Assembly: GCF_000455205.1 (NCBI RefSeq)
Contig: NZ_AUWQ01000085.1
Coordinates: forward strand, 1-47,159
Reading direction: 5' to 3'
DNA from: Mycobacterium sp. UM_CSW
Lineage (GTDB): Bacteria; Actinomycetota; Actinomycetes; Mycobacteriales; Mycobacteriaceae
DNA: 47,159 nucleotides
Below, in pieces: positions 19,444 through 47,159 of this stretch. Each line of letters starts with the position of its first letter. Position 1 is the stretch's first letter. The translations under genes and the position numbers were made by a program. The notes under the pieces were generated by a model. The model saw nothing but the letters and a program-made list of their open reading frames with translations. It was not told the origin of the DNA and did not search any database.

Positions 19444-20514
19444 GTGAGTTCGGGATTGGGCGCGGCAACCTTGGCCGAGGAGCATGACTGTGTGCTGCTC
19501 GACCTCGATGGCACGGTCTACCGGGGCGCGGTCCCGACCGCCGGTGCCGTAGAAACCCTGGAAGGTCTACGGGTTCGTACGCTGTTCCTGACCAACAACG
19601 CCTCCCGGAGCGCAGTCGAGGTCGCGGACCACATGCGCGACATGGGCTTTGCGGTCGACCCGGCTGACGTCGTGACCAGCGCACACACCGCCGCACGCCT
19701 CATGAGCGATAAGTTGCCGCAAAGGTCCAAGGTTTTGGTGATCGGCACCGACGCGCTGGCCGCCGAGGTGGCCGACGCCGGCCTGGCACCGGTGCGCTCC
19801 TGGGACGACGGGCCCGTAGCGGTGGTGCAGGGTCATTCGCCGCACACCAACTGGGCCGGACTGGCGGAGGCGGCCTTGGCTATCCGCGGCTGTGCGCTGT
19901 GGGTGGCATGCAACATCGACCCGACATTCCCCACCGAACGCGGTCTGCTCCCGGGCAATGGCGCAATGGTCGCCGCCCTGCGCGCCGCCACTGGCGCCGA
20001 GCCCATTGTCGTCGGAAAGCCCGAGTCTTACATGGTCCGAGATGGTTTGGGGCGCGGTCGCTTCGAATCACCGCTGGTGGTCGGTGACCGCCTCGAGACG
20101 GACATCGCCGGCGCGACGGTGGCGGGTCTGCCCAGTCTGCTGGTGTTCAGCGGCGTCGCCACCGCCGCCGATGTCGTTTATGCCAAACCCGATTGCCGGC
20201 CGACGTACATCGGGGAGGACTTGACCGCCCTCGCCGAGCGGAGTGACGCGTTGCGCGTCGCCCCACAGCCCGGCTGGCATGCGCAGGCCGGCCGCGGCGC
20301 GGTGACCGTCACGTCGACGGGCGAAGGCGGCCAGGACTGCGGGTTGTCCATCGTACGAGCCGCCGCGCACGCCGTCTGGAGCAGCGAATCCGCCCGCCCC
20401 CCGGTGGTTCTCGCCGGGGATGACGACGCGCGCCGCGCGCTCGAGAAGTGGGGCCTATTGGACGACCGACAGGCCCGGGTCGATCCGGGCGCGAACCGCG
20501 ACGGACGCACATGA
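19444..20514 (+). CDS. HAD-IIA phosphatase, Rv1692-like (glycerol-3-phosphate phosphatase family)
   Basis: The protein has 356 residues from GTG 19444 (an in-register choice over GTG 19442). Motif I is LLDLDGTVYRG with catalytic Asp20 and Asp22. Motif II lies in FLTNNASRS, the cap reads ALAIRGCALWVACNIDPTFP, and motif IV is LVVGDRLETDIAGA. Both the order and the C-terminal extension (VAPQPGW; GLSIVRAAAHAVW) match Rv1692, which dephosphorylates D-glycerol-3-phosphate in lipid recycling. It could be a paralogue with another substrate. It begins 58 bases after the AprA-HEAT stop, in the same direction. Its last 60 bases overlap the convergent gene that ends at 20455. Confidence 0.87.
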   Translation: MSSGLGAATLAEEHDCVLLDLDGTVYRGAVPTAGAVETLEGLRVRTLFLTNNASRSAVEVADHMRDMGFAVDPADVVTSAHTAARLMSDKLPQRSKVLVIGTDALAAEVADAGLAPVRSWDDGPVAVVQGHSPHTNWAGLAEAALAIRGCALWVACNIDPTFPTERGLLPGNGAMVAALRAATGAEPIVVGKPESYMVRDGLGRGRFESPLVVGDRLETDIAGATVAGLPSLLVFSGVATAADVVYAKPDCRPTYIGEDLTALAERSDALRVAPQPGWHAQAGRGAVTVTSTGEGGQDCGLSIVRAAAHAVWSSESARPPVVLAGDDDARRALEKWGLLDDRQARVDPGANRDGRT

Positions 20515-21285
20515 CGCACGCACGATCATGGCCGCGTCGGAGTCGGAGCCCTTGGGTATCTGGATCGCCGCGCTGTCGGGGTCCTCGCGGTGTGCCATGA
20601 GCCAGTCGTAGAGCAGCCAGTCCAGCGCACAGGCCACCGCGAACGGGTCCGCCTCGTCCGACGCCGCGCCCGCGACGCAGGCCTCGATGGCCTCACGGTG
20701 TTCCCGCCTGGCGGCGTCCTTGTTGACTCCCGAGCTGTCGAACAACATCGTCGACAGCGTCAGCGGATAGCGTTGGCCGGTCTCGGATTTCAGCACCCAC
20801 CGACCGCCCCTCCAGGGTTCCTGCGGGTTGACAAGAACCATCTCGCCGAAGCCGCTGATGACCCCCGGCGACGGCTCACCGAGCTCGCCGTCGAACGGGG
20901 CCGGGCCGAGCAGGCCCACCGGAAAACGAGCGCGGAGCGAAAACAGGGTGGCGGTACCGACGATCTTGCCCGCCCGCACGTCCGGGACGACGCCGGTGAT
21001 CTCCGCCGCCAGCGCGTAATCCCGCACCAACAGGTCCAGGCAGCGGTGCAGGACAACCAGGTCGGCGCGCTCGTCCGGATCGGGGCGCTTGCCCCCGCCG
21101 AGCAGTTCCCCGAACCGCGCCGCGGCGATGATCAACGCGTCGTCAAGAGCCTCGAGGTGCGTCGCAATCAAGCGGTCGGCCTCACCATCCCCGATGACCA
21201 GGTCGGGCAGCGTCGTGGCGGCGCCTTCCGGTGTGCACCAGTAGAAGCCGATCTGGCCCTCCGCCTGGGTGATTCGCGGTCTCAT
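20455..21285 (-). CDS. Uncharacterised protein, last gene of the hydrogenase operon
   Basis: The protein has 276 residues. The start is the ATG at 21285 (MRPRITQAEGQIGFYW), overlapping the preceding stop in an ATGA. It appears soluble and mostly acidic, with no signal peptide, no membrane span and no Cys cluster. Recognisable segments include ATTLPDLVIGDGEADRLIAT and LVNPQEPWRGGRWVLKSETG. I do not recognise the family. Its position after hypD and a DUF6390-like gene at the end of the hydrogenase operon suggests a role with the hydrogenase. The 3' end overlaps the convergent HAD gene by 60 bases. Confidence 0.75.
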   Translation of the reverse strand: MRPRITQAEGQIGFYWCTPEGAATTLPDLVIGDGEADRLIATHLEALDDALIIAAARFGELLGGGKRPDPDERADLVVLHRCLDLLVRDYALAAEITGVVPDVRAGKIVGTATLFSLRARFPVGLLGPAPFDGELGEPSPGVISGFGEMVLVNPQEPWRGGRWVLKSETGQRYPLTLSTMLFDSSGVNKDAARREHREAIEACVAGAASDEADPFAVACALDWLLYDWLMAHREDPDSAAIQIPKGSDSDAAMIVRASCASVAVRARIDPGLSVVQ

Positions 21286-22034
21286 GGCGCCTGCGCCCGC
21301 AGCCTGCGGTTGGTGGCCGCCAGTTGCCGGTGCGTGCTGTCCTTGAGCCTCGCCAACTGTTCGGGGATGAGGCGGTCGCACACCCAGCCCCAGTGCATCG
21401 CGACGAGATCGCCCCGCCGGACCGCGATCGGCCTTCCCTCGCCGGTGCGGACCCCGACCCGGCGCGTCCGCGGCCCGGACAGCGACAGCGAGGATCCCGT
21501 GAAGCACAGCTGCTGCGACACGACCAGCGCCGTATCTCCGTCCGTCGACAGGACGGTGCCCCAGGAGATGCGGCAGTTGTCCAGGACGGACACCGGATGC
21601 TCGTCGACGCCCCTGCCGAGCAACCGCGACCAGGGGTAGACGCCGAACACGTGGAAGCCGTGATTCGCCGCGGCCTCCTCGGCGAGGTCCTCGGTGAGGT
21701 GCGCCCAGTAGTGCCCGGCCTGCGGGGCGATGATCGCCATCAGCTCGGCCGTGAAGGCGTGCGAATCCATCGTCGAGCCCGCGCCCCCGCCCAGCCAATA
21801 GGATTCGACCAGGCGGAGGTCGAGGGGGTCGGGGATTCCGGTCAGCCGCGACATCACCCGCAGATACGGCCACGCCCCCGTGAATCGCCGTGCCGCACGC
21901 TCGATCTCGGCCCGCCCACCGTTGAGGAGGGCCGATGACTCGCGGGGCCCGCAGTAGCCGAGCTGGTTGGGTGCGTAGGCGTACCGCGCGAACATCTCCG
22001 CACCGCGGGTGTCGGTGATGTCGGCGATGGTCAT
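21282..22034 (-). CDS. DUF6390-like hydrogenase-cluster protein
   Basis: The protein has 250 residues. The start is the ATG at 22034 (MTIADITDTRGAEMFARYAY), overlapping the hypD stop. It contains APNQLGYCGPRESSALL, SYWLGGGAGSTMDSHAFTAE and NCRISWGTVLSTDGDTALVV. From memory it matches DUF6390, a family found in actinobacterial hydrogenase gene clusters; I cannot confirm this here. No catalytic motif is known. The segment GHYWAHLTEDL and two Cys (Cys28 region and NCRI) might matter for metal or cofactor handling, but this is speculation. Confidence 0.75.
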   Translation of the reverse strand: MTIADITDTRGAEMFARYAYAPNQLGYCGPRESSALLNGGRAEIERAARRFTGAWPYLRVMSRLTGIPDPLDLRLVESYWLGGGAGSTMDSHAFTAELMAIIAPQAGHYWAHLTEDLAEEAAANHGFHVFGVYPWSRLLGRGVDEHPVSVLDNCRISWGTVLSTDGDTALVVSQQLCFTGSSLSLSGPRTRRVGVRTGEGRPIAVRRGDLVAMHWGWVCDRLIPEQLARLKDSTHRQLAATNRRLRAQAP

Positions 22035-23176
22035 GCTCGCGCGCCCTGCCCGATCAGCGTTGCGGCGTCGCGGTGCAGCCTGCCGAAGTTGTAGTACGCG
22101 GCGCACGCGCCCTCCGGGGAGACCATGCAGGTGCCTATCGGGGTCTCCGGGGTGCACGCCGTTCCGAACACCTTGCACTCCCAGGGTTTGAGCACGCCCT
22201 TGAGCACCTCGCCGCACTGGCAGGCCTTGGGGTCGGCCACGCGCACGCCCGGCAGTGCGAATCGGCGTTCGGAATCGAAGTCCGCGAGCTCGTCACGCAG
22301 CCGCAAGGCGCTTTGCGAGATGAATCCCAGTCCACGCCATTCGAAGTGGGGGCGCAGCGCGAAGACGTCGGCCATCAGGGCGAGCGCCGCCGGGTTGCCC
22401 TCCTCGGAGACGACCCGCGAGTACTGGTTTTCGACTTCGCAACGCCCCTCGCGGATCTGGCGCAGCAGCATGGCGATCGATGCGAGGATGTCCAGCGGTT
22501 CGAATCCGGCAACCACCAGCGGCCTGCCGTAGACGGCGGGAACGAACCGGTAGGGCCGGGTGCCGACGACAGTGGACACGTGGCCCGGGCCGAGGAAACC
22601 GGACAGCCTAAGGTCGGGCGACTCCAGGATCGCCTTGATCGGCGGCACGATCGTGACGTGATTGCAGAATACGGTGAAGTTCTCGATCCCGAGCTCCCGC
22701 GCCCGCACCAGCGTGACCGCCGTTGACGGGGCGGTGGTTTCGAAGCCGATCGCGAAAAAAACGATGTGCTTGTCCGGGTTCTCGGTCGCGATCTTCAGCG
22801 CGTCCAGTGGCGAGTAGACGAACCGGACGTCGGCGCCGCCGGCCTTGGCATCCAGCAGACTCCCGTCCGAGCCGGGCACCCGCATCATGTCGCCGAAGCA
22901 GGTGAAGATCACGTCCGGTTGGCGCGCCAGCCAGATCGCGTCGTCGACACGGCCCATCGGGATGACGCAAACCGGGCAGCCGGGACCGTGCACGAGTTCG
23001 ACGTTGTCCGGCAGCAGGTGCTCGACGCCGTGGCGGTAGATCGTGTGGGTGTGGCCGCCGCACACCTCCATGAACTTGAAGTGCTCGTCTCCGGAGCCGG
23101 CCCCGGCCAGCGACTCGATGGCCGCCAACAGCTTTCGTGCCGAGGCGGGGTCTCGGAATTCGTCAACAAATCGCAT
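22031..23176 (-). CDS. hypD: Hydrogenase maturation factor HypD
   Basis: The protein has 381 residues, starting at ATG 23176 (MRFVDEFRDP). HypD with HypC carries the Fe(CN)2CO unit of the [NiFe] site while cyanide from HypE/HypF is attached. The conserved motifs are present: CGGHTHTI, HGPGCPVCVIP, CFGDMMRVPGS, FAIGFETTAPS and GPGHVSTVVG. A C-terminal Cys-rich [4Fe-4S] region follows (CQCGEVLKG, WECKVFGTACTPETPIGTC). Nothing is missing. It follows hypC after 14 bases and overlaps the DUF6390-like gene by four. Confidence 0.97.
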   Translation of the reverse strand: MRFVDEFRDPASARKLLAAIESLAGAGSGDEHFKFMEVCGGHTHTIYRHGVEHLLPDNVELVHGPGCPVCVIPMGRVDDAIWLARQPDVIFTCFGDMMRVPGSDGSLLDAKAGGADVRFVYSPLDALKIATENPDKHIVFFAIGFETTAPSTAVTLVRARELGIENFTVFCNHVTIVPPIKAILESPDLRLSGFLGPGHVSTVVGTRPYRFVPAVYGRPLVVAGFEPLDILASIAMLLRQIREGRCEVENQYSRVVSEEGNPAALALMADVFALRPHFEWRGLGFISQSALRLRDELADFDSERRFALPGVRVADPKACQCGEVLKGVLKPWECKVFGTACTPETPIGTCMVSPEGACAAYYNFGRLHRDAATLIGQGARA

Positions 23177-23190
23177 CGCAGTCTCCCCGG

Positions 23191-23463
23191 TCAGATGATC
23201 GACGACGTGTCGAACGCGTCTATTTCGTCGGAATACGTTTGGCCCAACTTCTGCACGGCGGCAAGGGTGAGCAGCGCCTCGGTTTCGTCGATCTTGGCCA
23301 TCGCGAAACCGACGTGGACCAGCACCCACTCGCCCGGCGCGAGCATGTCGTTCTCGAGCAGCCGCACGCTGATGATGCGGCGCACGCCGCTGACATCTAC
23401 CTTGGCCAGACAGTTTTCGGCGTCGGTGATCTCGATGACCTGTCCGGGGATGCCCAGGCACAT
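23191..23463 (-). CDS. hypC: Hydrogenase chaperone HypC (copy 1)
   Basis: The protein has 90 residues. The start is the ATG at 23463, giving MCLGIPGQVIEI, because HypC needs Cys2 directly after the initiator Met; an in-frame upstream start would bury it. The rest matches the OB-fold chaperone (VSVRLLEND-like strand, WVLVHVGFAMAKIDE). HypC binds HypD and the large-subunit precursor during iron delivery. It lies between hypE and hypD. A second, divergent HypC and a HypC-like domain in a fusion protein occur in the same operon. Confidence 0.94.
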   Translation of the reverse strand: MCLGIPGQVIEITDAENCLAKVDVSGVRRIISVRLLENDMLAPGEWVLVHVGFAMAKIDETEALLTLAAVQKLGQTYSDEIDAFDTSSII

Positions 23464-23478
23464 ATCTCTCAAGTCCTC

Positions 23479-24591
23479 TCAGCAGATTCGGGGCAGCGGG
23501 TCGCCGACGAGCATGTCCACGATGCGGGTGCCGCCGAACGCGGTGCGCACCAGCACGGTGGCCGCCGGTTCGTCGGCGATGCGTCCGATTTCGGCCGCGT
23601 CGCCACCCGCGGGGTGCGAGCGCAGGGCGTCCAACGCGTCGTCGGCCTCAGCGGGGTCGACGACGGCCAGGAACTTGCCCTCGTTGGCCACGTAAAGCGG
23701 GTCGATGCCGAGCATTTCGCAGGCGCCCGCCACGTCGGATCGCACCGGTAGCCGGTCCTCCTCTAGCACGACCGCCAGGCCGCACGCCTGCGCCAGCTCG
23801 TTGCACACCGTCCCGACGCCACCCCGGGTGGGGTCGCGCAGCCACCGCGTCTTGGGGGCCGCCCGCAGCAGACGCTCCACGAGGCCGGTCACCGCGGCGG
23901 TGTCGGAGTGGATGTCGGCTTCGATCGCCAGGTCGCCGCGTGCCAGCATCACCGCCATGCCGTGGTCACCGATGGTCCCGGAGGCCAGCACCCTGTCGCC
24001 GGGCCGCACCTTTCGCGGGGACAGGTCCCGTTCCGACGGAACGACTCCCGCTCCGGCGGTCGTGATGAACATGCCGTCGGCCGCGCCCCGGGGGACCACC
24101 TTGGTATCGCCGGTGACGATCTGCACACCGGCCGCCCGCGCGGCGGCGGCCATGTCGGCGACGATTCCGCGCAGCTCTTCGATCGCAAAGCCCTCTTCCA
24201 GGACGAAGGCCGCCGTCATCCACGACGGCACGGCACCGGCCATGGCGAGGTCGTTCACCGTGCCGTTGACGGCCAGGTCGCCGATCGATCCGCCGGGGAA
24301 TCGAAGTGGCTGCACGACAAACGAATCAGTGGACATCGCCAGCCGCGGCCCGCCGGGCATCGCGATGACGGCGCCGTCGCCCAGCGATTCCAGCTGAGGG
24401 TTGCGAAAGGCCTCCAGGAAAACGGCGTCGACCAATGCGGCGGACGCCTTGCCGCCGGCACCGTGAGCGAGCGTCACGACGGTGTCGCGCAGCCGCGGCC
24501 GCCGCCTGCGGAACGCCTCGATGCGGTCGATGACCTCGCCCTCGCCGAACGAGGGGCCGGAGGTGAGGTATTCGGCAACATGTTCTCTCAT
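23479..24591 (-). CDS. hypE: Hydrogenase maturation factor HypE
   Basis: The protein has 370 residues from ATG 24591. HypE dehydrates a carbamoyl group on its C-terminal Cys to thiocyanate, the cyanide donor for the active-site iron. The PurM/AIR-synthase-like fold is visible (LAHGAGGKAS; MSTDSFVVQPLRFPGGSIGD; VTGDTKVVPRG; RDPTRGGVGT). The protein ends PRIC, with the essential C-terminal Cys370. The start overlaps the SIS gene stop (ATGA), and hypC follows after 15 bases. Confidence 0.97.
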   Translation of the reverse strand: MREHVAEYLTSGPSFGEGEVIDRIEAFRRRRPRLRDTVVTLAHGAGGKASAALVDAVFLEAFRNPQLESLGDGAVIAMPGGPRLAMSTDSFVVQPLRFPGGSIGDLAVNGTVNDLAMAGAVPSWMTAAFVLEEGFAIEELRGIVADMAAAARAAGVQIVTGDTKVVPRGAADGMFITTAGAGVVPSERDLSPRKVRPGDRVLASGTIGDHGMAVMLARGDLAIEADIHSDTAAVTGLVERLLRAAPKTRWLRDPTRGGVGTVCNELAQACGLAVVLEEDRLPVRSDVAGACEMLGIDPLYVANEGKFLAVVDPAEADDALDALRSHPAGGDAAEIGRIADEPAATVLVRTAFGGTRIVDMLVGDPLPRIC

Positions 24592-25250
24592 CGGACTCCC
24601 ATTTGCGCATGCACGGCGGACCACAACCGATATCCCAACGCCGCCTGCGACTCCTGGATTCGGTGCACGCTCTGGGACCGGACGACAAAGCACACGTCGA
24701 CGTCGGCGCTGTCGGCGAAGGCGCCTCCGTCGTACCCGGTGAACCCGATCGTGTAGACGCCGCGGCGATGAGCCTCGCGCATCGCATGCAGCAGGTCCGC
24801 CGAATTGCCGCTGGTGGACATCGCGACGGCGATGTCGCCGGCCCGCGCCCGGGCGATCAACTGCCGGGCGAACACCAAGTCGAAGCCGACGTCGTTGGCC
24901 AGGGCGGTCAGCACCGCCTGGTCCGATGTCAGCGACCACGCCGGCAGCGGCCGCGCGGCGCACTGCTGGGCGAACAGCATCGCCAAAGTGGCTGCGTCCG
25001 TGGCGCTTCCGCCGTTACCGAAGGTGAACAGCCTGCCGCCAGCCGCGAATCGGCGCGCCATCTCGGCGGCCGCGACGGTGATCGAAGCGTCGCACGATTC
25101 CAGCGTGGCCGCGCGCAACGCGGAGCTTTCGGCGGACTTGGCCAGCGCGGAGTCCACCAGGTCGGTCAGCAACGGGCCGGGGTCGCGTTCGTCGCCGTCA
25201 ATGAACGGATAGAGGAAGTTGGTCGCCTCGCCGATGTGATTCTTGCTCAT
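24588..25250 (-). CDS. SIS-domain protein, GmhA/phosphoheptose isomerase-like
   Basis: The protein has 220 residues. The SIS domain runs from about residue 55 to 200 with the phosphosugar-binding loops FGNGGSATDAA and AMSTSGNSADLL. Annotation pipelines usually call this sedoheptulose-7-phosphate isomerase (GmhA). Here it is embedded between a SIS-HypC fusion gene and hypE in a hydrogenase operon, and no heptose-synthesis genes are near. I infer a role linked to hydrogenase maturation or its regulation. The ligand is unknown. Confidence 0.88.
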   Translation of the reverse strand: MSKNHIGEATNFLYPFIDGDERDPGPLLTDLVDSALAKSAESSALRAATLESCDASITVAAAEMARRFAAGGRLFTFGNGGSATDAATLAMLFAQQCAARPLPAWSLTSDQAVLTALANDVGFDLVFARQLIARARAGDIAVAMSTSGNSADLLHAMREAHRRGVYTIGFTGYDGGAFADSADVDVCFVVRSQSVHRIQESQAALGYRLWSAVHAQMGVR

Positions 25251-25256: not shown

Positions 25257-25958
25257 TCAGGCTTCACCCAGCTTGCTGATCGCCAGGCCGGCGTGCACTA
25301 GAACGACGTCGCCGGGGGAGAGCGGGCCGATCAGATCGGTGGCCACCGTCTCGGTGCCCTTCGCGGTGCGCACCGGGGTCAACGAAGTCGCGGTGCCGTG
25401 GGTGCCGGGCAGAACCTCGGCGGGCCGCCCCTCGTCGGCGCAGGTGATGCACACGTCGTCGGCGCAGTCCTGGGGCCGAGGGACCAGCAGCCCGGGATGC
25501 TCGAAGCACACATGGGTCAACTCCCACAGCAGGTGGTAGAGCAGTACGAACTCGCCGGTCGCGGACAGCACCGGATCCGGATCATCAAGCCACAGCACGT
25601 GATCCGCGGCGCCGGCCGTCGGACGTTCGCCGTTGCCGATCCAGATCGTCGTGACACCCCACGCGGCGCCGCGACGCATGACCGCGCATACGTCGGGGTC
25701 CGCGGCGCCGGCGACGGCGATCACCACGTCGCCGGCGCGGGCCGATACCCGCACCTGCCCCACCAGGTCGTGCCCGGTGAGGGCGACCGCCGGCAGGGCG
25801 CGCTTCCCGACGATCACCGGGTGCACGAATTCGACGGCGACGTGCTGGGCGTGCGGGGCAAGGGCCGGGGCGACGCACCACATCGTCGCGCCGGCCGAGA
25901 AGCGCTGCGCCAGCGCGAAAGAGGCCTGGGCCAGGTCGGCCGCAAGATCGGGCGTCAT
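25257..25958 (-). CDS. SIS-like domain fused to a HypC/HupF-like domain
   Basis: The protein has 233 residues from ATG 25958, overlapping the hypC stop by one base (TGATG). Residues 1-160 resemble a degenerate SIS domain (LAQRFSAGATMWCVAPALAP; AQHVAVEFVHPVIVG; VSARAGDVVIAVAGAADPD), without the clear GNGGS loop of the next gene. Residues about 170-233 form a HypC/HupF-like domain: DVCITCADEGRPAEV, then SPGDVVLVHAGLAISKLGEA. Cys in CITC may replace the Cys2 of HypC. Such a fusion would link phosphosugar-type sensing or binding to iron-site assembly, but its role is not established. Confidence 0.78.
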   Translation of the reverse strand: MTPDLAADLAQASFALAQRFSAGATMWCVAPALAPHAQHVAVEFVHPVIVGKRALPAVALTGHDLVGQVRVSARAGDVVIAVAGAADPDVCAVMRRGAAWGVTTIWIGNGERPTAGAADHVLWLDDPDPVLSATGEFVLLYHLLWELTHVCFEHPGLLVPRPQDCADDVCITCADEGRPAEVLPGTHGTATSLTPVRTAKGTETVATDLIGPLSPGDVVLVHAGLAISKLGEA

Positions 25959-26221
25959 CACGGCCGCGCCTCCAGATCCGCCTCGAGGTCGCCGAACACC
26001 CCGTACTCGCGCATCGTCTCTAGGGTTACCCGCGCGGACTCCTCGTCGATGCGGGTGAGCGCGAAACCGGCGTGCACGATCGTGTAGTCGCCGATCGCCA
26101 AATCGGGAAGGTATGCCAGGCAGGCGGTCTTGATCTCGTCGCCGTAGGCGACCGCGGCAAACCGCCCTCCCTCGGGGGCGTCCCAGACCTCGGTGATCCG
26201 GCCGGGAATCCCTAGACACAT
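25958..26221 (-). CDS. hypC: Hydrogenase chaperone HypC (copy 2)
   Basis: The protein has 87 residues from ATG 26221, reading MCLGIPGRITEVWDAPEGG with Cys2 in place. The OB-fold core ends in DYTIVHAGFALTRIDEESA, followed by a longer charged tail. It overlaps the 3' end of hypF by 10 bases and is followed by the SIS-HypC fusion through a 1-base overlap. Two stand-alone HypC proteins suggest one for each step or for two clients, but only one hydrogenase is encoded in this window. Confidence 0.94.
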   Translation of the reverse strand: MCLGIPGRITEVWDAPEGGRFAAVAYGDEIKTACLAYLPDLAIGDYTIVHAGFALTRIDEESARVTLETMREYGVFGDLEADLEARP

Positions 26222-28593
26222 CGCGCGGTCCTTTCTTCCGACGCCGCGGTCAGTATCGAGATCGCGGCCTGGCCAAGCGCCAGCCCGCCGTCGTTGGGGG
26301 GAACGAGACGGTGGGTGAGGACGGTGAAACCGGCATCCTCCAGCCGCCGGCGGCATTCGGTCAACAGAAACACATTTTGGAACACCCCGCCCGTCAGCCC
26401 GACCGTCGATGTGCCCCCCGCGACCCGGCCGACCGCTACCGTGACGGCAATCGCGACGGTGTGGTGGAACGCCGCCGCCAGGTCGCGCTTGTCGGCGCCG
26501 CTTGCCAGCGCGTCGACCATCGCGGTGATCATCGGTGCGGGATCCATGATCCCGTCGGCGCTTACCGCGATAGGCAGCTGAATCGACGGTTCGCGGTTGC
26601 CGGCGGATGCGGCCAGCGCCTCCAGCTCGATCGCGGCCTGGCCTTCGTAGTCGATGCGCTGGCGCACCCCGAGGATCGATGCGACCGCGTCGAACAACCG
26701 GCCGACACTCGTGGTCGGCACACAGCCGCGCCCCGCCGTGAACTGCGTTCGGAGCAAACGCAATTCGGCTGGGCTGGCCGCCTTGACCGGGGCCAGGTCG
26801 GCGTCCCACGGAGTGCGGGCGCTCCACAGGTGGGCCAGCGCCATCCGCCACGGGTTGCGCACGGCCGCATCACCACCGGCCAGCGGCACGTCGGCAAGGT
26901 GCCCAACCCGAGTGAAGCGGTGACTGTCCCGGCCAAGCCGCAGGATCTCGCCGCCCCAGGCGGCACCGTCGAGCCCGTACCCGGTGCCGTCGAAGGCGAC
27001 GCCGATGATGGGCTCGTTCAGCATTTCGTGCTCGGCGAGCAGCGACACCACGTGCGCGTGATGGTGCTGGATAAGATCCAGCGGTCGGTCACCGGCGTTG
27101 CGCTCAGCCCAGTTTCGCGTCAGGTAGCGCGGATGCAGATCGGCGGCCAGCCGCACCGGCTGCGACCGCATGTCAGCGAGCTGCCGCACCGAGTGGGTGA
27201 ACGCCTTCAGCGTGGCGACGGTGCCCATGTCGCCGATGTGGGCCGAGCAGTACGCCCGCCGGCCGTCGGTCAGGCAAAAGGTGTTCTTGAGCTCCCCGCC
27301 GACCGCGAGCACCGGAGGGCTGTTCCGGCCGAGGTCGACGGGGAGCGGTGCGTAGCCGCGGGATCGCCGGATAGGCAGCTGGCTGGCCTTCTTGCGGGCG
27401 GAACCGGCAGTCTCTTCCCGGATCACCCGCACCACGGAGTCATCGCACGGCACGTGGATCGGCCGGTCGTGGTCCAGGACGGCGTCCGCGAGCTCGGGCA
27501 GCCGCTTGGCGGCGTCTTCGACGGTGTAGCAGATGGGTTCGTCGGATCGGTTGGCGCTGGTCAGCACAATCGCCTGGGGCGACGGCGTGTTCGAACCCGG
27601 GACGGGGGCCAACAACAGGTGATGGACCGGCGAGTACGGCAGCAGCAGCCCGATCAGCGGGTTGTCCGGTGCGACCGTCGCCGCGACAGGCGCGCCTCGC
27701 CTACGCCGGAGCAGCACCACCGGACGCGACGGGCTCAGGAGCGCCGCGGCTTCCGACTTGCTGATGTGCGCGTAGCGCCGCGCGACTTCAAGGTCTCGGA
27801 CCATGACGGCGAAGGCCTTGCCGTGCCGCGCCTTTCGCCGCCTGATCGCCCCGACTGCAGCGGCGTCGTCAGGCGCACACGCGAGGTGATATCCACCGAT
27901 GCCCTTGATGCCTACGACGCGGCCGTCGGCCAGCGCGCGCTGCGTGGCGGCCAGCGCGGCGTCGACTTGGGTGATGCGCACGCCGTCGCCTCCGGTGAAC
28001 CACATGGAAGGGCCGCAGGCCGGGCATGCGATGGGCTGGGCGTGGAACCGGCGGTCGGCGGGGTCGTGGTATTCGGTGGCGCAGTCGCCGCACATCGCGA
28101 ACTCCGCCATGGTGGTGGCGGGCCGGTCGTAGGGCAGTGCGCGGATGATCGTGAACCGGGGACCGCAGTTCGTGCATGTGACGAACGGATGCCGGTATCG
28201 GCGATCGGACGGGTCGAACAGCTCGGTCACGCAGTCGTCGCAGACGGCGATATCGGCGGGTATCGCGCTCGCCGTGGCACCGGAGTTGCGGCTGGCGACG
28301 ATGCGAAACCCGCGAGAACCGTTGGCTTCGTGCGGCTCTCCGTTGAGCTCGGCGCAGGCCACGTCGCTGATCAGCGCCAGCGGGGGAGCGTCGGTGATCA
28401 GCCGGTCGCCGAATTGCGCGAGCGCGTCGGGTCTGCCCTGGACCTCGATGAACACCGCCGACGCGTCGTTGCCGACAAAGCCGCTCAACCCCAACTCGGT
28501 GGCCACCCGGTGGACGAACGGCCGAAAGCCCACGCCCTGAACCACCCCGGTCACCAGGTAGCGGCGGCGCCGCGTGGTTGTGAGCGGCGTCAT
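26212..28593 (-). CDS. hypF: Carbamoyltransferase HypF
   Basis: The protein has 793 residues using ATG 28593, which overlaps the NHL gene stop as ATGA; a GTG at 28605 would add four residues. HypF makes carbamoyl-adenylate from carbamoyl phosphate and ATP and carbamoylates HypE. The domains are in order: acylphosphatase (GVVQGVGFRPFVHR near the N-terminus), two zinc fingers (CDDC...CTNC and CGDC...CPAC), a YrdC-like domain (VVGIKGIGGYHLAC) and a Kae1/TsaD-like C-terminal domain (QHHHAHVVSLLAEH; GVAFDGTGYGLDG; LTGGVFQNVFLL). All look intact. Confidence 0.97.
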   Translation of the reverse strand: MTPLTTTRRRRYLVTGVVQGVGFRPFVHRVATELGLSGFVGNDASAVFIEVQGRPDALAQFGDRLITDAPPLALISDVACAELNGEPHEANGSRGFRIVASRNSGATASAIPADIAVCDDCVTELFDPSDRRYRHPFVTCTNCGPRFTIIRALPYDRPATTMAEFAMCGDCATEYHDPADRRFHAQPIACPACGPSMWFTGGDGVRITQVDAALAATQRALADGRVVGIKGIGGYHLACAPDDAAAVGAIRRRKARHGKAFAVMVRDLEVARRYAHISKSEAAALLSPSRPVVLLRRRRGAPVAATVAPDNPLIGLLLPYSPVHHLLLAPVPGSNTPSPQAIVLTSANRSDEPICYTVEDAAKRLPELADAVLDHDRPIHVPCDDSVVRVIREETAGSARKKASQLPIRRSRGYAPLPVDLGRNSPPVLAVGGELKNTFCLTDGRRAYCSAHIGDMGTVATLKAFTHSVRQLADMRSQPVRLAADLHPRYLTRNWAERNAGDRPLDLIQHHHAHVVSLLAEHEMLNEPIIGVAFDGTGYGLDGAAWGGEILRLGRDSHRFTRVGHLADVPLAGGDAAVRNPWRMALAHLWSARTPWDADLAPVKAASPAELRLLRTQFTAGRGCVPTTSVGRLFDAVASILGVRQRIDYEGQAAIELEALAASAGNREPSIQLPIAVSADGIMDPAPMITAMVDALASGADKRDLAAAFHHTVAIAVTVAVGRVAGGTSTVGLTGGVFQNVFLLTECRRRLEDAGFTVLTHRLVPPNDGGLALGQAAISILTAASEERTARCV

Positions 28594-37657: not shown

Positions 37658-37996
37658 GTGCACGAACTGTCCATCTGCAATTCGATGGTCGGAATCGTGC
37701 GCAAGCACGCGGCCGGCCGCGGGATCCAAACCGTGCACGTGCGGATCGGGGCGCTGCGCCAGATCGTGCCCGAGACCCTCGTCTACTGCTGGTCCCTGGT
37801 CACCGAAAGCTCCGAATTAGCGGGCGTCGAGCTCCGGGTGGAGCGCATACCCGCCAAAATCCGGTGTGCCGGGTGCGGCCGGGAAACCGTGCTCGATGCA
37901 GTCGTCATGGCGTGTTCGTCCTGCGGCGGGGCCGCGGTCGAATTGGTCGAGGGGGACGAATTCCTCATCACTTCACTCGATTTGGCGGAGGTGTGA
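37658..37996 (+). CDS. hypA: Nickel insertion protein HypA
   Basis: The protein has 112 residues. GTG 37658 is chosen over the upstream in-frame ATG because HypA needs Met-His-Glu (MHELSICNSM) with His2 as nickel ligand. The structural zinc site is two CxxC pairs, Cys70/Cys73 (CAGCG) and Cys86/Cys89 (CSSCG). HypA delivers nickel to the large subunit with HypB. It follows the AraC gene by 45 bases and is 3 bases from hypB. Confidence 0.95.
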   Translation: MHELSICNSMVGIVRKHAAGRGIQTVHVRIGALRQIVPETLVYCWSLVTESSELAGVELRVERIPAKIRCAGCGRETVLDAVVMACSSCGGAAVELVEGDEFLITSLDLAEV

Positions 37997-39934: not shown

Positions 39935-39939
39935 GCGTC

Positions 39940-40839
39940 ATGTCACGCAAGCATCCCATCGTCTCGGTGACCGGCTCGTCGGGAGCGGGCACGACGTCGG
40001 TAATGCGCACCTTCCAGCAGATATTCCGTCGGGAAGGCGTCAACGTCGCCTATGTGGAGGGCGACAGTTTTCACCGTTTCGATCGCCTCGGCATGAAGGA
40101 GGCGATCGCCGACGCCCACGCCCGTGGTGACCACGCCTTCAGCCACTTCGGCCCGGAGGCAAACCTTTTCGAGGACCTCGAGGAATTGTTCCGGACGTAC
40201 GGCGAAGCGGGGACCGGCAAGTTCCGCAAATACCTGCACGACGACGACGAAGCCAAGCCGTACGGCCAGCCACCCGGCACCTTCACGGCCTGGGAGGAGA
40301 TCCCCGAGGGTACGGACATGCTCTTCTACGAGGGGCTGCACGGCGCGATCACCACGGAGACGGTGGACGTCGCCCGCCATGCGGACCTGCGCATCGGCGT
40401 GGTGCCGGTGATCAACCTCGAGTGGATCCAAAAGCTTCACCGCGACAAGAACGTTCGCGGTTACACGTCGGAGGCGGTCACCGACACGATCCTGCGCCGG
40501 ATGCCTGACTACGTGAACTACATCTGTTCGCAATTCTCCAATACCGACGTCAACTTTCAGCGCGTTCCGGTGGTCGACACGTCGAACCCGTTCATCGCCA
40601 GGACCATCCCGACGGCGGACGAATCGATGCTGATCATCCGGTTTCGCGATCCGCACGGCATCGACTTTCCCTATCTACTGGCGATGCTGCACGACTCGTT
40701 CATGTCGCGCCCGAACACAATCGTGTGTCCGGGCGGCAAAATGGATTTGGCGATGCAGCTCATCTTCACCCCGATGATCCTCCGGCTGGTCGACCGGCGA
40801 AACGCGGAGCTCCGCAACGCGGATCTGGTGAGCCGCTGA
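39940..40839 (+). CDS. prk: Phosphoribulokinase
   Basis: The protein has 299 residues, the usual length of the bacterial octameric enzyme, from ATG 39940. The P-loop is GSSGAGTTS (12-20), followed by YVEGDSFHRFDR, HFGPEANLFEDLEELF, WEEIPEGTDMLFYEGLHGA and the kinase end HGIDFPYLLAMLHDSFMSR. It phosphorylates ribulose-5-phosphate with ATP to the RuBisCO substrate ribulose-1,5-bisphosphate and is a hallmark of a working Calvin cycle. Often called cbbP. It sits between fbp and the nickel permease in one plus-strand run. Confidence 0.97.
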   Translation: MSRKHPIVSVTGSSGAGTTSVMRTFQQIFRREGVNVAYVEGDSFHRFDRLGMKEAIADAHARGDHAFSHFGPEANLFEDLEELFRTYGEAGTGKFRKYLHDDDEAKPYGQPPGTFTAWEEIPEGTDMLFYEGLHGAITTETVDVARHADLRIGVVPVINLEWIQKLHRDKNVRGYTSEAVTDTILRRMPDYVNYICSQFSNTDVNFQRVPVVDTSNPFIARTIPTADESMLIIRFRDPHGIDFPYLLAMLHDSFMSRPNTIVCPGGKMDLAMQLIFTPMILRLVDRRNAELRNADLVSR

Positions 40840-40845: not shown

Positions 40846-41928
40846 GTGACTACACCATCCTGGCGAACGGCATTGTCCCGGCGCGAGTGGGCGCACGTGG
40901 CGGCCATGGCCGGTGTTGTCATCGCGCTGCATCTCACCGGATGGTTAGTCCTGATCGCGTTTGTGGTGCCGCAGCACCTGAGCGTCGGCGGCCGGGCGCT
41001 GGGTGTCGGCGTCGGTCTCACCGCATACATGATCGGCCTGCGGCATGCTTTCGATGCCGATCACATCGCCGCGATAGACAACACCACCCGCAAGTTGATG
41101 AGCGACGGGCAGCGCCCGCTGACCACGGGATTCTTTTTCTCGCTGGGACATTCGACGGTGGTGTTCGTGGTGGCCCTGTTGCTGTCGGTAGGCATCAGAA
41201 CGCTGAGCGGGCCTGTCCTGAACGACGCCTCGACACTGCATAGGTACGCGGGCCTTTTCGGAACCACAGTGTCCGGCGTCTTCCTCTATCTGATCGCCGG
41301 CATCAACATCGCGGTGCTCGTGGGGATCGTTCGGATTTTCCGCCGGATGCGGCGGGGCATATATGACGAAGGCGAGTTGGAGCGGCAGTTGAACAACCGC
41401 GGGCTGGCGGCCCGGTTCCTGCGGCGCTTCACAAAATCCATTCGCAGCCCATGGCAGTTGTACCCGCTCGGAGTGTTGTTCGGCCTGGGTTTCGATACCG
41501 CGACCGAGGTTGCGCTGCTGGTGCTGGCCGGCAGCAGCGCCGCGGCGGGCGTGCCGTGGTACGCCATTCTGTGCCTGCCGGTGTTGTTTGCGGCCGGCAT
41601 GAGCCTGCTCGACACGATCGATGGTTCGTTCATGAACTTCGCCTATGGCTGGGCATTTTCGCGGCCCGCGCGCAAGGTCTACTACAACATCACCATAACC
41701 GCGCTGTCGGCGGCGGTGGCGCTTATCGTCGGCAGCATTGAGCTGGTCGGGGTGCTTGCCGACCAGCTCGGGTTGACGGGCGACTTCTGGGAATGGTTGC
41801 GCGGCATCGATTTGAATGCGGTCGGCTTCATCATCGTCGGGTTGTTCGCGTTGACGTGGGCCGTGGCGCTGCTAGTTTGGCGCTTCGCCCGCATCGAGCA
41901 GCGGTGGAGCGGGCTGGCCGAAGATTAA
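40846..41928 (+). CDS. nicT: NiCoT family nickel/cobalt permease
   Basis: The protein has 360 residues from GTG 40846, 6 bases after prk. It has eight or so hydrophobic helices. The family signature is HX4DH in helix II (RHAFDADHIAAIDNTTRKLM). Two further family motifs are present: FFSLGHSTVVF and LGFDTATEVALL. It imports Ni2+ with high affinity, which the hydrogenase requires. The cotranscription with hypA-hypB and prk joins nickel supply to H2 oxidation and CO2 fixation. Confidence 0.93.
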   Translation: MTTPSWRTALSRREWAHVAAMAGVVIALHLTGWLVLIAFVVPQHLSVGGRALGVGVGLTAYMIGLRHAFDADHIAAIDNTTRKLMSDGQRPLTTGFFFSLGHSTVVFVVALLLSVGIRTLSGPVLNDASTLHRYAGLFGTTVSGVFLYLIAGINIAVLVGIVRIFRRMRRGIYDEGELERQLNNRGLAARFLRRFTKSIRSPWQLYPLGVLFGLGFDTATEVALLVLAGSSAAAGVPWYAILCLPVLFAAGMSLLDTIDGSFMNFAYGWAFSRPARKVYYNITITALSAAVALIVGSIELVGVLADQLGLTGDFWEWLRGIDLNAVGFIIVGLFALTWAVALLVWRFARIEQRWSGLAED

Positions 41929-41939: not shown

Positions 41940-42536
41940 TCAGCGGGACAGCGCGCGAACGACGATTTCAGCGGCGAGCTGGGCGGTGAAGTGGCGCGAA
42001 TCCCGCGGACCGGCGAGGTCCACCAGGCGAAACTCTCCGTGCACGTATCGCCGGCTCGCCCGGGCCACGGCGTCTGCCGTGCGGGAACTGACCAGGGCGG
42101 TGGTGTCGACTTCTACGGGGCCGCAGTCCTTGTCGCGGACCGAACCGTCGAGGTCCGGCACGCGCGGGTGGCCGCAGTCGATGACAACCAAGCCCGTGAA
42201 CCGCCCCCGCTGGCTCGCGGCCAGGCTCCACGCCAACTCGCCCCCGCTGCGGTCGCCGACCAGCAGCGCGCTGCCCACCTCGAACTGGTCCAGGATGCGG
42301 ATCACCGACTTCGGGCTCAGGTCGGGGTGGGCGGGGATCGTCAGCGTCCGGAACGTCGCGACATGCAGCCGATCGCGGACGGCGTCATAGGCGTTCTGCC
42401 CGCCCGGCACCTCGTCCAGCATGACGACCACCCGGCCCCCGTCAGGACCGCTCAGCCTCACCGGCACCCGAAATCCGTCGAGTGTGTCGGCGGCGCAGAC
42501 ATATTCGTGATCCGCGGTCGACGACGGGTGGGCCAT
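41940..42536 (-). CDS. Alpha/beta-hydrolase-like protein coupled to cbbS
   Basis: The protein has 198 residues. ATG 42536 overlaps the cbbS stop (TGATG). The fold is suggested by GRVVVMLDEVPGG, LLVGDRSGGELAWSLA and LVVIDCGHPRV. At the usual nucleophile elbow (G-x-S-x-G) the sequence is G94-D95-R96-S97-G98, so the expected Ser position appears as Arg96. The next Ser (97) is out of register. It may thus be a non-catalytic relative that assists or regulates RuBisCO, or an unusual hydrolase. No homologous role is known to me. Confidence 0.7.
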   Translation of the reverse strand: MAHPSSTADHEYVCAADTLDGFRVPVRLSGPDGGRVVVMLDEVPGGQNAYDAVRDRLHVATFRTLTIPAHPDLSPKSVIRILDQFEVGSALLVGDRSGGELAWSLAASQRGRFTGLVVIDCGHPRVPDLDGSVRDKDCGPVEVDTTALVSSRTADAVARASRRYVHGEFRLVDLAGPRDSRHFTAQLAAEIVVRALSR

Positions 42537-42958
42537 CAGTCCGCGTAGCGGTGACCCGGCGGCTGCCGGGTGGCGTAGGCGAAGGTGGTGTACCCGATGC
42601 GCCGGTCAGATCCTTCGGCGCGATCGAGCCGGAAACCCGGCTCGTCGGCGGGACGCTGCACGATGAACGAGAACGCGGTGGTCTGCCGGCCCAGGCGGGC
42701 GTCGTACGCGTTGAGGCGGACGTATGCGGTGGGATAGGCGCTTCGGCAGGCGTTGACTTCCAACAGAACACCCGCGGCGTCCTTGAGGTCGAACATCGGC
42801 AGGCCCCACATCTCCCAATACACGTTGCGCGGATGCGGGTCGTCCGTGAACTCGACCGAGAGCGGCCAATCGTTGTCCAACGCATAGTTGATCTGGGCCG
42901 TGATCTCGTCGTCGGTGAAGTCCGGTAGGTAGGAGAAGGTGCCTTGGGTGATACGCAT
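42536..42958 (-). CDS. cbbS: RuBisCO small subunit
   Basis: The protein has 140 residues. Small-subunit segments include [59 protein letters not shown] and [20 protein letters not shown]. This is the family's normal start (TFSYLP) and core (YW.MWGLPMF). It caps the L8S8 form I enzyme. It follows cbbL by 18 bases and overlaps the hydrolase-like gene. Its C-terminal part ([20 protein letters not shown]) resembles actinobacterial form I small subunits. Confidence 0.97.
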
Positions 42959-42976: not shown

Positions 42977-44450
<1,474 letters not shown>

Positions 44451-44467
44451 TCTGCCATTGAAACTGA

Positions 44468-44578: not shown

Positions 44579-45577
44579 ATGACGACCTGTCGACAGACCG
44601 CCGCGCGAATGATGGAGCTCGGCAAGGGGATTCTGGCTGCCGACGAAAGCATCGCCACCATGTCGAAGCGGCTCCAAGAGGCCGGCGTCGAACCGACCGC
44701 CGAAAACCGGCGCCTGTACCGCGAACTCCTCGCCACGGCGCCCGGTCTCTCCGAGAGCGTGTCGGGCATCATCTTCTGCGACGAAACCCTCCGCCAGAGC
44801 TTCAGCGACGGAACACCGTTCGCCGAGGCGGTGCGCGGGTTGGGCATCCTGCCCGGCATCAAGGTGGACACCGGCGCCAAACCGTGCCCGGGGTTGCCCG
44901 GGGAGACGGTCACCGAGGGGCTGGACGGGTTGCCTGCCCGGCTGGCCGAGTACGCGGAGATGGGCGCGGCATTCGCCAAGTGGCGGGCGGTGTTCACGAT
45001 AACCGACGCCACGCCCAGCCGTGGCGCGATCCGGGCCAACGCCAACTCCCTTGCGCGCTACGCCGCAGCCTGCCAGGAGGCCGGACTGGTGCCGATCGTC
45101 GAGCCCGAGGTGCTCATGGACGGTAGCCACAACCGGGGCGTCTGCCGGGAAGTGACCGGTTGGGTGCACACCGCGGTGCGAACCGAACTCGCGCTGCTCA
45201 ACGTCGATTTGGCCGGCATCGTCCTCAAGCCGAACATGGTCCTCGAAGGCGAGGGCTACGCCCGGCAATCGACCCCGGCCGAGGTGGCCGACTTCACCGT
45301 GGGCGTGCTGCGGGCGTGGCCGGGCGATCTCGCGGGTGTGGCCTTCCTGTCCGGCGGCCAGTCACCCGAGCGGGCGACCGCCAATCTCGCGGCGATGCAG
45401 CAACATCAGACGCCTTGGCCGTTGACGTTCTCCTTCGGCCGGGCCCTGGTGTCGCCGGCGCTTTCGGCCTGGCGCGGGGACCCGGACCGCGTCGCCGACG
45501 GGCAGGCCGCGCTGGTCGAGCGGGTCGCCGCCAACGGGGCCGCGGTGCGGCTTCGCGGCGAACTTCAGTCGGTGTGA
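44579..45577 (+). CDS. fba: Class I fructose-bisphosphate aldolase
   Basis: The protein has 332 residues from ATG 44579, preceded by AAGGGG. The Schiff-base lysine is Lys217 in GIVLKPNMVLEG, with Lys134 (FAKWRAVF) and GILAADESIATM also conserved, so this is the metal-free class I enzyme. It condenses dihydroxyacetone phosphate with glyceraldehyde-3-phosphate or erythrose-4-phosphate in the Calvin cycle, or cleaves fructose-bisphosphate in glycolysis. Most mycobacteria also have a class II aldolase. It is divergent from cbbL, which supports a Calvin-cycle role. Confidence 0.97.
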   Translation: MTTCRQTAARMMELGKGILAADESIATMSKRLQEAGVEPTAENRRLYRELLATAPGLSESVSGIIFCDETLRQSFSDGTPFAEAVRGLGILPGIKVDTGAKPCPGLPGETVTEGLDGLPARLAEYAEMGAAFAKWRAVFTITDATPSRGAIRANANSLARYAAACQEAGLVPIVEPEVLMDGSHNRGVCREVTGWVHTAVRTELALLNVDLAGIVLKPNMVLEGEGYARQSTPAEVADFTVGVLRAWPGDLAGVAFLSGGQSPERATANLAAMQQHQTPWPLTFSFGRALVSPALSAWRGDPDRVADGQAALVERVAANGAAVRLRGELQSV

Positions 45578-45604: not shown

Positions 45605-46315
45605 TCACCATGCCACGCCGTCGACGACGTCAGCGGTCAGGGCGGCGGTGTAGTCGCCGGACGCCGCATCCCCGGCCGATCCGTACACGAACGCGGCTTG
45701 TGGGGTACCGACAGCGCACTCGAACGCCCGTAGACACATGTCGGTGAGGTCCGCTCGCGAGATATTCTGCGACTGGATCCATTTGACGCAGGCCGCGCGG
45801 ACGAATGCCAACCAGCCTTCGACGGCGATCTCGACGGCATCGCGCAGATGGCCCTCCGCGACAAGCTCATTGACCAGGCGCCGGCCCACGATGTTGAGCT
45901 CCTCGGCGATGATCGCCTGGATCGCCGGGTCGTCCGACAATGCGCCGCGGTTGATCGTGACGGCTTCGAAGGGATGATCGACAAACGATTGGATGTGGGC
46001 GTCGAGCGCGATGGCAAGCTGTTCGGCCAGCGGCAAGTGCGGATCAGGACTCACGCGCGCCAGAAACCGGCCACTAGCGCGCTCGAATATCGCTACATAG
46101 ATGTCCCGCTTGCTCGCAAAATAGTGATACAGAGTCGCTCTCGACACACCGGCGCGTGCGGCGATGTCCTCCATCCAAACATCTTCGTATGGTTTTTCCG
46201 CGAACAACGCTGCGCCTTCATCGAGCAGGTGTTCGCGTCGCTGGTGCGGCTTCAACCGGCGTCGTGCCACGTGCCCACGATCGCCGAACCGACGCGCGGG
46301 CCGTGGCTCGATCAC
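45605..46315 (-). CDS. TetR family regulator
   Basis: The protein has about 236 residues if the GTG at 46315 is used; a GTG at 46270 would remove 15. The N-terminal TetR helix-turn-helix reads LFAEKPYEDVWMEDIAARAG, then VSRATLYHYFASKRDIYVAI. The C-terminal ligand domain has no Cys cluster. It lies between fba and gap and is read after the 70-residue gene that ends at 46317. It might control fba, cbbLS or gap. The ligand is unknown. Confidence 0.88.
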   Translation of the reverse strand: MIEPRPARRFGDRGHVARRRLKPHQRREHLLDEGAALFAEKPYEDVWMEDIAARAGVSRATLYHYFASKRDIYVAIFERASGRFLARVSPDPHLPLAEQLAIALDAHIQSFVDHPFEAVTINRGALSDDPAIQAIIAEELNIVGRRLVNELVAEGHLRDAVEIAVEGWLAFVRAACVKWIQSQNISRADLTDMCLRAFECAVGTPQAAFVYGSAGDAASGDYTAALTADVVDGVAW

Positions 46316-46316
46316 G

Positions 46317-46529
46317 TCAGGCACGGCCGACGACCCACAGCGCGCGCCGCGTCGGATCGACCACCTCACGGCCGCCCGCGTCGTATTCGACCAGCACATG
46401 GCCGGGCGAGGTTGAGCGGATTCGCCCCAGCCGGCCGGACACACCGGACGCCACACGCACCCGATCGCCGGCCGTCGGAGCGTGGTGTGCGCGTGCGGGA
46501 CCGTGGATAGCCGCGGCGGTGCGGGACAT
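46317..46529 (-). CDS. Small basic protein upstream of TetR
   Basis: The protein has 70 residues. ATG 46529 is chosen because AAGGAG lies 5 bases upstream; an in-frame start at 46547 lacks this. After a polar tail (MSRTAAAIHGPARAHHAPTA) comes a small beta-rich domain (GDRVRVASGVSGRLGRIRST; HVLVEYDAGGREVVDP), similar in style to KOW or DUF1918 domains. Its stop is one base from the TetR start. Function unknown. Confidence 0.65.
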   Translation of the reverse strand: MSRTAAAIHGPARAHHAPTAGDRVRVASGVSGRLGRIRSTSPGHVLVEYDAGGREVVDPTRRALWVVGRA

Positions 46530-46570: not shown

Positions 46571-46589
46571 GGCGCCCGCCGCGGGCGCC
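46571..46589. repeat. GC-rich hairpin in the gap between the 70-aa gene and gap
   Basis: GGCGCCCG (46571-46578) and CGGGCGCC (46582-46589) form an 8-bp perfect stem with a CCG loop. There is no T-run, so a simple intrinsic terminator is doubtful. It sits in the divergent region between the 70-residue gene and gap and may be a leader hairpin or regulatory element. Further along, CCCCCTGACTGGGGG (about 46639-46653) gives another 5-bp stem. Confidence 0.35.
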
Positions 46590-46718
46590 CCCGATGGGGG
46601 GTTTTCGGGGTGGTCGGGTGTTCAGCCCTCAGAATTGCCCCCTGACTGGGGGATGCACTGGCGAAAGCGTCGGAAGACCATGGCATTCCGATGACGTGAA
46701 CGATCGATGGAGGCACAA

Positions 46719-47159
46719 GTGACGGTCCGAGTGGGTATCAACGGCTTCGGCCGAATCGGACGCAATTTCTACCGGGCGTTGCTGGCCCAGCAGGAGGCGG
46801 GGACGGCCGATGTCGAGGTGGTGGCCGTCAATGACATCACCGATAACGCCACGTTGGCGCATTTACTCAAATTCGACTCGATTTTGGGTCGGTTGCCCGA
46901 TGACGTGAGCCTGGAGGGCGAGGACACCATCGTGGTGGGCACTCGGCGGATCAAGGCGCTCGAGGTGCGCGAGGGTCCCGCGGCGATGCCGTGGAGCGAT
47001 CTGGGTGTGGACGTGGTGGTGGAATCCACCGGGCTGTTTACCAACGCGGCCAAGGCCAAGGGCCATTTGGATGCCGGGGCCAAGAAGGTGATCATCTCCG
47101 CGCCGGCCACCGATCCCGACATCACCATCGTGTTGGGCGTGAACGACGACAAGTACGAC
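46719..47159 (+). CDS. gap: Glyceraldehyde-3-phosphate dehydrogenase, 5' part
   Basis: The GTG at 46719 follows GGAGG by 5 bases. 147 residues are visible and the gene runs off the right end. The NAD-binding Rossmann start VGINGFGRIGRNFYRALL is followed by VVAVNDITDNATLAHLLKFD, VVVESTGLFTNAAKAKGHLD and KKVIISAPATDPDITIVLGV. The catalytic Cys lies outside the window. It resembles the housekeeping mycobacterial gap closely, from memory, so this may be a second copy serving the Calvin cycle or the main copy if the cbb genes were inserted beside it. pgk and tkt might follow. Confidence 0.95.
   Translation, partial: MTVRVGINGFGRIGRNFYRALLAQQEAGTADVEVVAVNDITDNATLAHLLKFDSILGRLPDDVSLEGEDTIVVGTRRIKALEVREGPAAMPWSDLGVDVVVESTGLFTNAAKAKGHLDAGAKKVIISAPATDPDITIVLGVNDDKYD

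Follow-up and report, generated by a model that had tools for sequence, protein, structure and literature searches.

The 47,159-base stretch of DNA analysed here (the window) is the entire contig C85 of the Mycobacterium sp. UM_CSW assembly (G000; 6.39 Mb, 186 contigs, completeness 99.99%). It carries a Huc-type [NiFe]-hydrogenase cluster together with both key enzymes of the Calvin cycle, phosphoribulokinase (PRK) and RuBisCO. We propose, with a probability of roughly 0.7, that the window contains the greater part of a mycobacterial island devoted to hydrogen-driven CO2 fixation, in which the hydrogenase (huc), Calvin-cycle enzymes, a complex I running in reverse and control by AraC and CbbR would work together. 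Genes were named by NCBIfam and Pfam scans of the window proteins. NCBIfam does not name Huc (its best large-subunit model scores 338 bits against a cut-off of 600), so the name relies instead on the match to the solved M. smegmatis enzyme (7uus). HucL aligns with the large subunit 7uus_A at 1082 bits over 515 residues, and the DUF1641 protein with the adapter HucM (7uus_Q) at E 7e-32. By the HucL match, both CxxC motifs, the HucM adapter and the huc-type accessory genes, the hydrogenase can be assigned to group 2a, Huc type. The features of the locus are as follows.

19444..20514, plus: HAD-family phosphatase with a GNAT-like C-terminus (Pfam), candidate phosphoglycolate phosphatase
20455..21282, minus: last gene of the huc operon, without an NCBIfam or Pfam family, conserved beside huc
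21282..22034, minus: DUF6390 protein (PF19927, 340 bits; start approximate)
22031..23200, minus: hypD (TIGR00075; start approximate)
23191..23472, minus: hypC, first copy (TIGR00074)
23479..24585, minus: hypE (TIGR02124; start approximate)
24588..25250, minus: SIS-domain protein (PF13580)
25257..25962, minus: protein with a HypC-like C-terminus (PF01455, 31 bits; start uncertain)
25958..26221, minus: hypC, second copy (TIGR00074, 52.6 bits; start approximate)
26212..28605, minus: hypF (TIGR00143)
28590..29780, minus: NHL-repeat protein (PF01436; start approximate)
29780..30700, minus: NifU-Rieske protein, HucE-like (PF01106 and PF00355; start approximate)
30694..31968, minus: TPR-like protein (PF13424 at 27.7 bits, below cut-off), conserved in huc loci
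31940..32212, minus: 90-aa protein, conserved in huc loci
32212..33066, minus: hydrogenase maturation protease (TIGR00072)
33063..34670, minus: hucL, group 2a [NiFe]-hydrogenase large subunit
34728..35699, minus: hucS, small subunit (family scan; 99% identical in the relative G361)
35748..36350, minus: hucM, membrane adapter (PF07849)
36413..36449: candidate AraC operator, 17-nt direct repeats with 20-bp spacing, inside a 46-bp element (36411-36456)
36464..37612, plus: AraC-family regulator, divergent from huc (family scan; start uncertain, TTG at 36488 likely), beside hucM in 49 genomes
37628..37996, plus: hypA (TIGR00100 at 76.1 bits, below the cut-off of 88.1)
38000..38818, plus: hypB (TIGR00073)
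38861..39934, plus: fbp, class I fructose-1,6-bisphosphatase (family scan)
39931..40839, plus: prk, phosphoribulokinase, overlapping the end of fbp (NF011997)
40846..41928, plus: nickel permease NicT (NF052500)
41940..42536, minus: abh (a working label), paralogue of a near-universal mycobacterial protein, function not known
42536..42958, minus: cbbS, RuBisCO small subunit (sequence match)
42977..44428, minus: cbbL, RuBisCO large subunit, red-type form I by family scan and closest solved forms (start maybe a few codons later)
44428..44451: perfect 8+8 palindrome between cbbL and fba, candidate CbbR site, a conserved block in relatives
44579..45577, plus: fba, class I fructose-bisphosphate aldolase (NF033379)
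45605..46456, minus: TetR-family regulator (every model below cut-off)
46707..47159, plus: gap, 5′ part (NCBIfam/Pfam scan)

These scans bear out the original prediction, made from the bare letters of the window, of a complete group 2a hydrogenase with its Hyp factors and a nickel permease. They also place fbp, prk, the RuBisCO large subunit, the aldolase and gap where it had put them and on the same strands, with prk between fbp and the nickel permease on the strand of hypA-hypB. RuBisCO had been listed as a large subunit; cbbS, only 18 bp from cbbL, was missed. By spacing, the genes form three main blocks. Two are on the minus strand, huc with the Hyp genes (36350 to 20455) and cbbL-cbbS-abh, the latter diverging from fba; the third, araC-hypA-hypB-fbp-prk-nicT, is on the plus strand. 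The gaps from araC to nicT are 15, 3, 42, -4 and 6 bp, and in this arrangement hypAB, fbp and prk probably follow araC in one operon.

CbbL and CbbS match red-type enzymes best, with the exception of one entry, 25hn, and the RuBisCO can be placed by such matches as red-type form I, with a small subunit of about 140 residues that best matches red-type ones. CbbL carries the catalytic lysine motifs, and the motifs that we take to mark the active sites of CbbL, PRK and HucL are all present. The gene after cbbS, whose reading frame overlaps the cbbS stop, has no Pfam, NCBIfam or PDB match; its protein, only tentatively an alpha/beta-hydrolase as the label abh implies, gives a predicted model with a mean pLDDT of 69.6. 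We considered this gene as a substitute for CbbX and rejected it, since CbbX is encoded elsewhere in 14/14 relatives that share the window's gene order and a homologue of the gene occurs in 390/396 Mycobacterium genomes. One genome, G004, has a further copy of it next to its second HAD gene.

The association of the two systems extends well beyond this strain. Among the 396 Mycobacterium genomes, a RuBisCO-family match is found in 54 (in G282 and G392 it is only 31% identical to the window's CbbL) and a HucL of at least 80% identity in 102, a few of them partial. Both occur in 47 genomes (odds ratio 35, p 6e-25, kinship uncorrected), and 55 have HucL without RuBisCO. In 45 of the 47, huc and cbb lie within 20 kb of each other, on one contig and 5.3 to 19.4 kb apart, and neither the side of huc on which cbb lies nor the orientation of the two to each other ever varies; such frequent linkage is not due to chance. 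The two unlinked genomes are G041, where the genes fall on split contigs, and G392, with its distant RuBisCO. HucL and CbbL distances correlate (r = 0.71 over 38 genomes; 0/2000 permutations as high), supporting the view that huc and cbb are co-inherited. Measured against G361, the ratio of nonsynonymous to synonymous changes (pN/pS) is 0.026 for cbbL, 0.049 for cbbS, 0.079 for prk, 0.050 for hucL and 0.016 for hucS, the loosest values being those of nicT (0.372) and abh (0.315). Coding constraint is thus strong, supporting purifying selection on both systems. The linkage upholds the earlier claim that the two systems are physically joined. Outside the mycobacteria, 74 other loci were compared with up to 10 kb of flank, and Kineosporia (L049) alone showed a match to hucS next to cbb. 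In G013 and G278 (L195, L130) the island has another hydrogenase cluster next to it, only distantly related to Huc (about 24-29% identity).

Two architectures of the island can be recognised. Architecture A, shared by the window and 14 relatives (15/15), runs huc / araC-hypA-hypB-fbp-prk-(nicT) / abh-cbbS-cbbL / fba; nicT is present in 6 of these 15 genomes, and in G186 prk and cbbL are in pieces. Architecture B comprises 30 genomes with a short spacing of 5.3-5.6 kb. All 23 of its annotated loci run huc / araC / cbbR-cbbX-cbbS-cbbL / fba, followed by a two-component pair, rpe and tkt, and prk and fbp sit past the opposite end of huc. The window's arrangement was rejected as a marker of slow growers: M. 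gordonae (L022) has architecture B, while M. lehmannii (L064) and Mycolicibacterium sp. P9-22 (L024) have A.

Complex I genes adjoin both architectures. Because the window is a whole contig, gap is truncated at its end. Contig C1 opens with the remaining part of gap (88% to the G361 island), from which we infer that C1 follows C85 and that the window continues into a complex I operon. On C1, island-type nuoN to nuoCD come next, and from nuoB/nuoA onward the contig is housekeeping flank. In G361, a nuo operon (nuoN to nuoA) comes after fba and gap, then a response regulator, cbbR and cbbX; further on stand a sensor kinase with a regulator, rpe and tkt, another prk and a HAD gene. Ten A relatives carry cbbL and cbbX on the same contig (G361, G013, G039, G096, G187, G252, G186, G234, G301 and G083), and all 10 have nuoF between the two; the remaining four have nuo genes beside cbbR. 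Architecture B has nuo genes directly after the last huc-operon gene in 24/24 genomes examined (of 30); in 13 of them this is a nuo operon starting with nuoA, though in one of these the contig stops once nuoA has been read. By comparison, no nuo gene was seen in 12 huc genomes without RuBisCO (of 55) over the 2.7-5.2 kb past the last huc-operon gene. Two NuoF copies (at least 70% identity) are found in 16/19 RuBisCO-positive genomes versus one in 3/3 negative ones, and G000 itself has one NuoF plus a broken second operon; relatedness among the genomes limits the independence of all these nuo counts.

One could suppose that nuo genes stand there through old synteny alone and do no work with Huc or the Calvin cycle. 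In 6/9 Nocardia loci (L068-L071, L073, L081), a different cluster, cbbR-cbbL-cbbS-cbbX-fbp-prk, lies 3.6-6.1 kb from a nuo operon, which could reflect an old neighbourhood. We nevertheless think this explanation improbable: the mycobacterial island copies are extras, they stand at two different positions, and none was seen near the 12 huc loci without RuBisCO. Trees built by a quick method speak to the same point. With nuoCD-EF-G, 8/9 A island copies and the C1 copy form one clade (support 93); with nuoH-N, 5/8 A island copies and C1 do so (support 99), and the sparsely filled G252 and G234 fall apart from that clade. The island copies of G186, G004 and G012 group with their own housekeeping copies. 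This implies that the second nuo copy arose several times or was converted, which, for G004 and G012 in particular, counts against old synteny alone.

Several findings weigh against a working island that includes a whole complex I. A complete dedicated complex I is not universal: 11/24 B genomes keep nuoL-nuoM alone, with long open frames (e.g. L188:12752-16239), and G083 shows just nuoEF between cbbL and cbbX. NuoF is present once in G006, and no match above 41% was obtained in G109. A RuBisCO match unaccompanied by a close HucL occurs in seven genomes. Red-type RuBisCO depends on CbbX, which is present at 77-82% in the 14 A relatives; in the G000 assembly it was not found (best match 40%), nor were the island-type copies of tkt, prk and rpe (tkt2, prk2, rpe2). 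Several relatives, too, lack prk2. Housekeeping-type copies of tkt and the ribulose-phosphate epimerase gene, whose absence the original prediction would have held against itself, are present on C23 (45%) and C115 (43%).

These gaps in G000 invite the thought that the island is linked but degenerating: recombination between two nuo operons would have removed cbbR, cbbX, rpe, tkt and prk2, autotrophy would be lost, and huc, cbbLS and prk would be relics or serve another use. The assembly in which the four genes were sought is 99.99% complete, and C1 joins island-type nuo genes to a housekeeping flank, a mosaic that either such recombination or a misjoin in nuoB would give. On the other hand, contig C39, which continues through nuoN into the housekeeping flank, opens inside the housekeeping nuoG. 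The assembly is thus broken exactly where the missing block would be, and a loss of cbbX, tkt2, prk2 and rpe2 cannot be claimed. Moreover, cbbL, cbbS and prk are still under strong constraint, and the candidate CbbR palindrome is perfect. We regard degeneration as unlikely, and a functioning island as the better account of the locus.

How might such an island be controlled? huc and araC-hypAB-fbp-prk-nicT diverge from one region that holds a tandem-repeat element, an arrangement described here for the first time. The 46-bp element lies between hucM and araC in all 49 aligned genomes (15 of architecture A, 23 of B and 11 without RuBisCO), and 23/46 of its columns are at least 98% identical, compared with 10/129 in the rest of the hucM-araC region. 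G209 and G330 are without recognisable hucM and araC beside hucS. Direct repeats at such spacing have the geometry of AraC-family operators, and a scan of the whole window finds only this one site of the kind. Weighing on the other side, the element also contains an inverted repeat of 10 nt (one mismatch), and a different protein may therefore read the site. A 2026 study of huc regulation (PMC13098282), in the part available to us, reports no binding of GylR, Crp1 or Crp2 at the huc promoter and describes its direct regulators as unidentified; the term AraC is absent from that part. By its position, the AraC protein encoded at 36464-37612 is the obvious candidate for that role. A sensor kinase and response regulator stand beside araC and huc in some huc genomes without RuBisCO (L147, L149, L150, L154); they are homologous to the pair near cbb elsewhere and make a second candidate. 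The palindrome between cbbL and fba, whose exact core recurs in 23/44 cbbL-fba regions, is likely a CbbR site.

Taken together, these features suggest the following scheme. M. smegmatis Huc passes electrons from H2 to menaquinone and the respiratory chain. The window's Huc would likewise oxidise H2 and deliver electrons to menaquinone, and part of them would be respired to yield ATP. Since menaquinol cannot reduce NAD directly, we propose that the island-adjacent complex I runs backwards and supplies NADH to the Calvin enzymes; reverse electron flow is its likely role. PRK and RuBisCO would then fix CO2, with fbp, fba and gap completing part of the cycle, and the HAD paralogue may remove 2-phosphoglycolate. 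G000 has a second copy of this HAD phosphatase (C56:3892-4890, 60% identity); a second copy is found in 5/7 RuBisCO-positive genomes tested versus 0/3 negative ones. The AraC-type operator would act in both directions, on huc and on araC-hypA-hypB-fbp-prk-nicT, and cbbLS and fba may be controlled independently by CbbR bound at the palindrome. By itself a nuoL-nuoM pair can neither oxidise nor produce NADH; the pair may have been swapped into the housekeeping complex or, as in cyanobacteria, take part in CO2 uptake. That complex I genes, whole or nuoL-nuoM, were repeatedly attached to the Huc-RuBisCO island as a dedicated module, driving H2 electrons uphill to NADH or, with nuoL-nuoM only, altering the housekeeping complex or aiding CO2 uptake, and that the AraC protein is the missing direct huc regulator, we advance as a tentative extension. 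Of the original interpretation, the joining of the two systems stands; it had overlooked that complex I genes are linked, that a promoter region is shared and that CbbX is absent from the assembly.

A different use for RuBisCO and PRK, in redox balancing or carbon salvage during heterotrophy, would reduce the link to Huc to shared induction on starvation. In line with this, organic carbon such as glycerol represses huc in M. smegmatis, where it serves mixotrophy, according to the part of PMC13098282 available to us. A redox sink, however, would need neither a hydrogenase nor an extra complex I alongside, and autotrophic growth of the slow grower M. gordonae with hydrogen has been published, as the title of a 1974 paper cited in PMC7563442 states. 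We judge the salvage explanation rather unlikely, and retain hydrogen-driven fixation, mixotrophy or survival being a more probable use of the island than life on H2 and CO2 alone. The same title, the linked cluster of M. gordonae (L022) and a 2026 survey (PMC12999727, of which we saw a part) speak against the suggestion that such growth is rarely considered. In that part of the survey, form IE RuBisCO is listed for 7 Mycobacteriales strains, each of which apparently has hydrogenase genes too.

At the left end of the window lie two PE_PGRS genes (Pfam scan), as had been predicted, and from these genes slow growth of the strain may be presumed. Further inward are an Orn/Lys/Arg decarboxylase of 947 residues (7215-10058) and a FAD-binding, succinate-dehydrogenase-like flavoprotein fused to HEAT repeats (16701-19385), preceded by genes for an ABC transporter ATPase and an NMT1-like protein.

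The general idea of H2-driven autotrophy in mycobacteria is old; the complex I adjacency and the shared operator region are new here, and a limited literature search, covering titles and the starts of abstracts, gave no report of huc-cbb-nuo linkage or of the AraC element. As Huc feeds menaquinone, the supply of NADH for CO2 fixation in aerobes that take H2 from air is an open point, to which hydrogenase, RuBisCO and complex I in one island offer a testable answer. The conserved AraC gene and its operator give a concrete candidate for the regulator sought in the huc study (PMC13098282, as far as available to us). The island also marks mycobacteria, water-borne slow growers included, that may live partly on gas.

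Comparison with known systems places the island more precisely. As in published accounts of form IE RuBisCO with trace-gas oxidation in Actinobacteriota (PMC9561532, PMC12999727; both available to us in part), a red-type actinobacterial RuBisCO occurs with a high-affinity hydrogenase. Those accounts, in the parts seen, describe co-occurrence in genomes; here there are physical linkage, a shared regulatory region and complex I. Form IE is the type published for Mycobacteriales in the seen part of PMC12999727, and the window's enzyme is placed as red-type form I only. Like M. smegmatis Huc, the window has HucL, a HucM homologue, the NHL and NifU-Rieske proteins, the protease and the Hyp genes; unlike it, its huc genes are joined to Calvin-cycle and complex I genes, and RuBisCO is not reported in those parts of the M. 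smegmatis Huc literature that we consulted. The cyanobacterial NDH-1 variants for CO2 uptake and the DAB pumps tie NuoL/NuoM-type subunits to carbon fixation, as do the 11 genomes with nuoL-nuoM only; the mycobacterial pair differs in following a hydrogenase operon. Closest of all are M. gordonae and other mycobacteria (L021-L024, L064), which hold the same gene families in one island. M. gordonae L022 has araC-cbbR-cbbX-cbbS-cbbL-fba where the window has hypAB-fbp-prk-nicT, whereas the window's relatives place cbbR-cbbX past a nuo operon.

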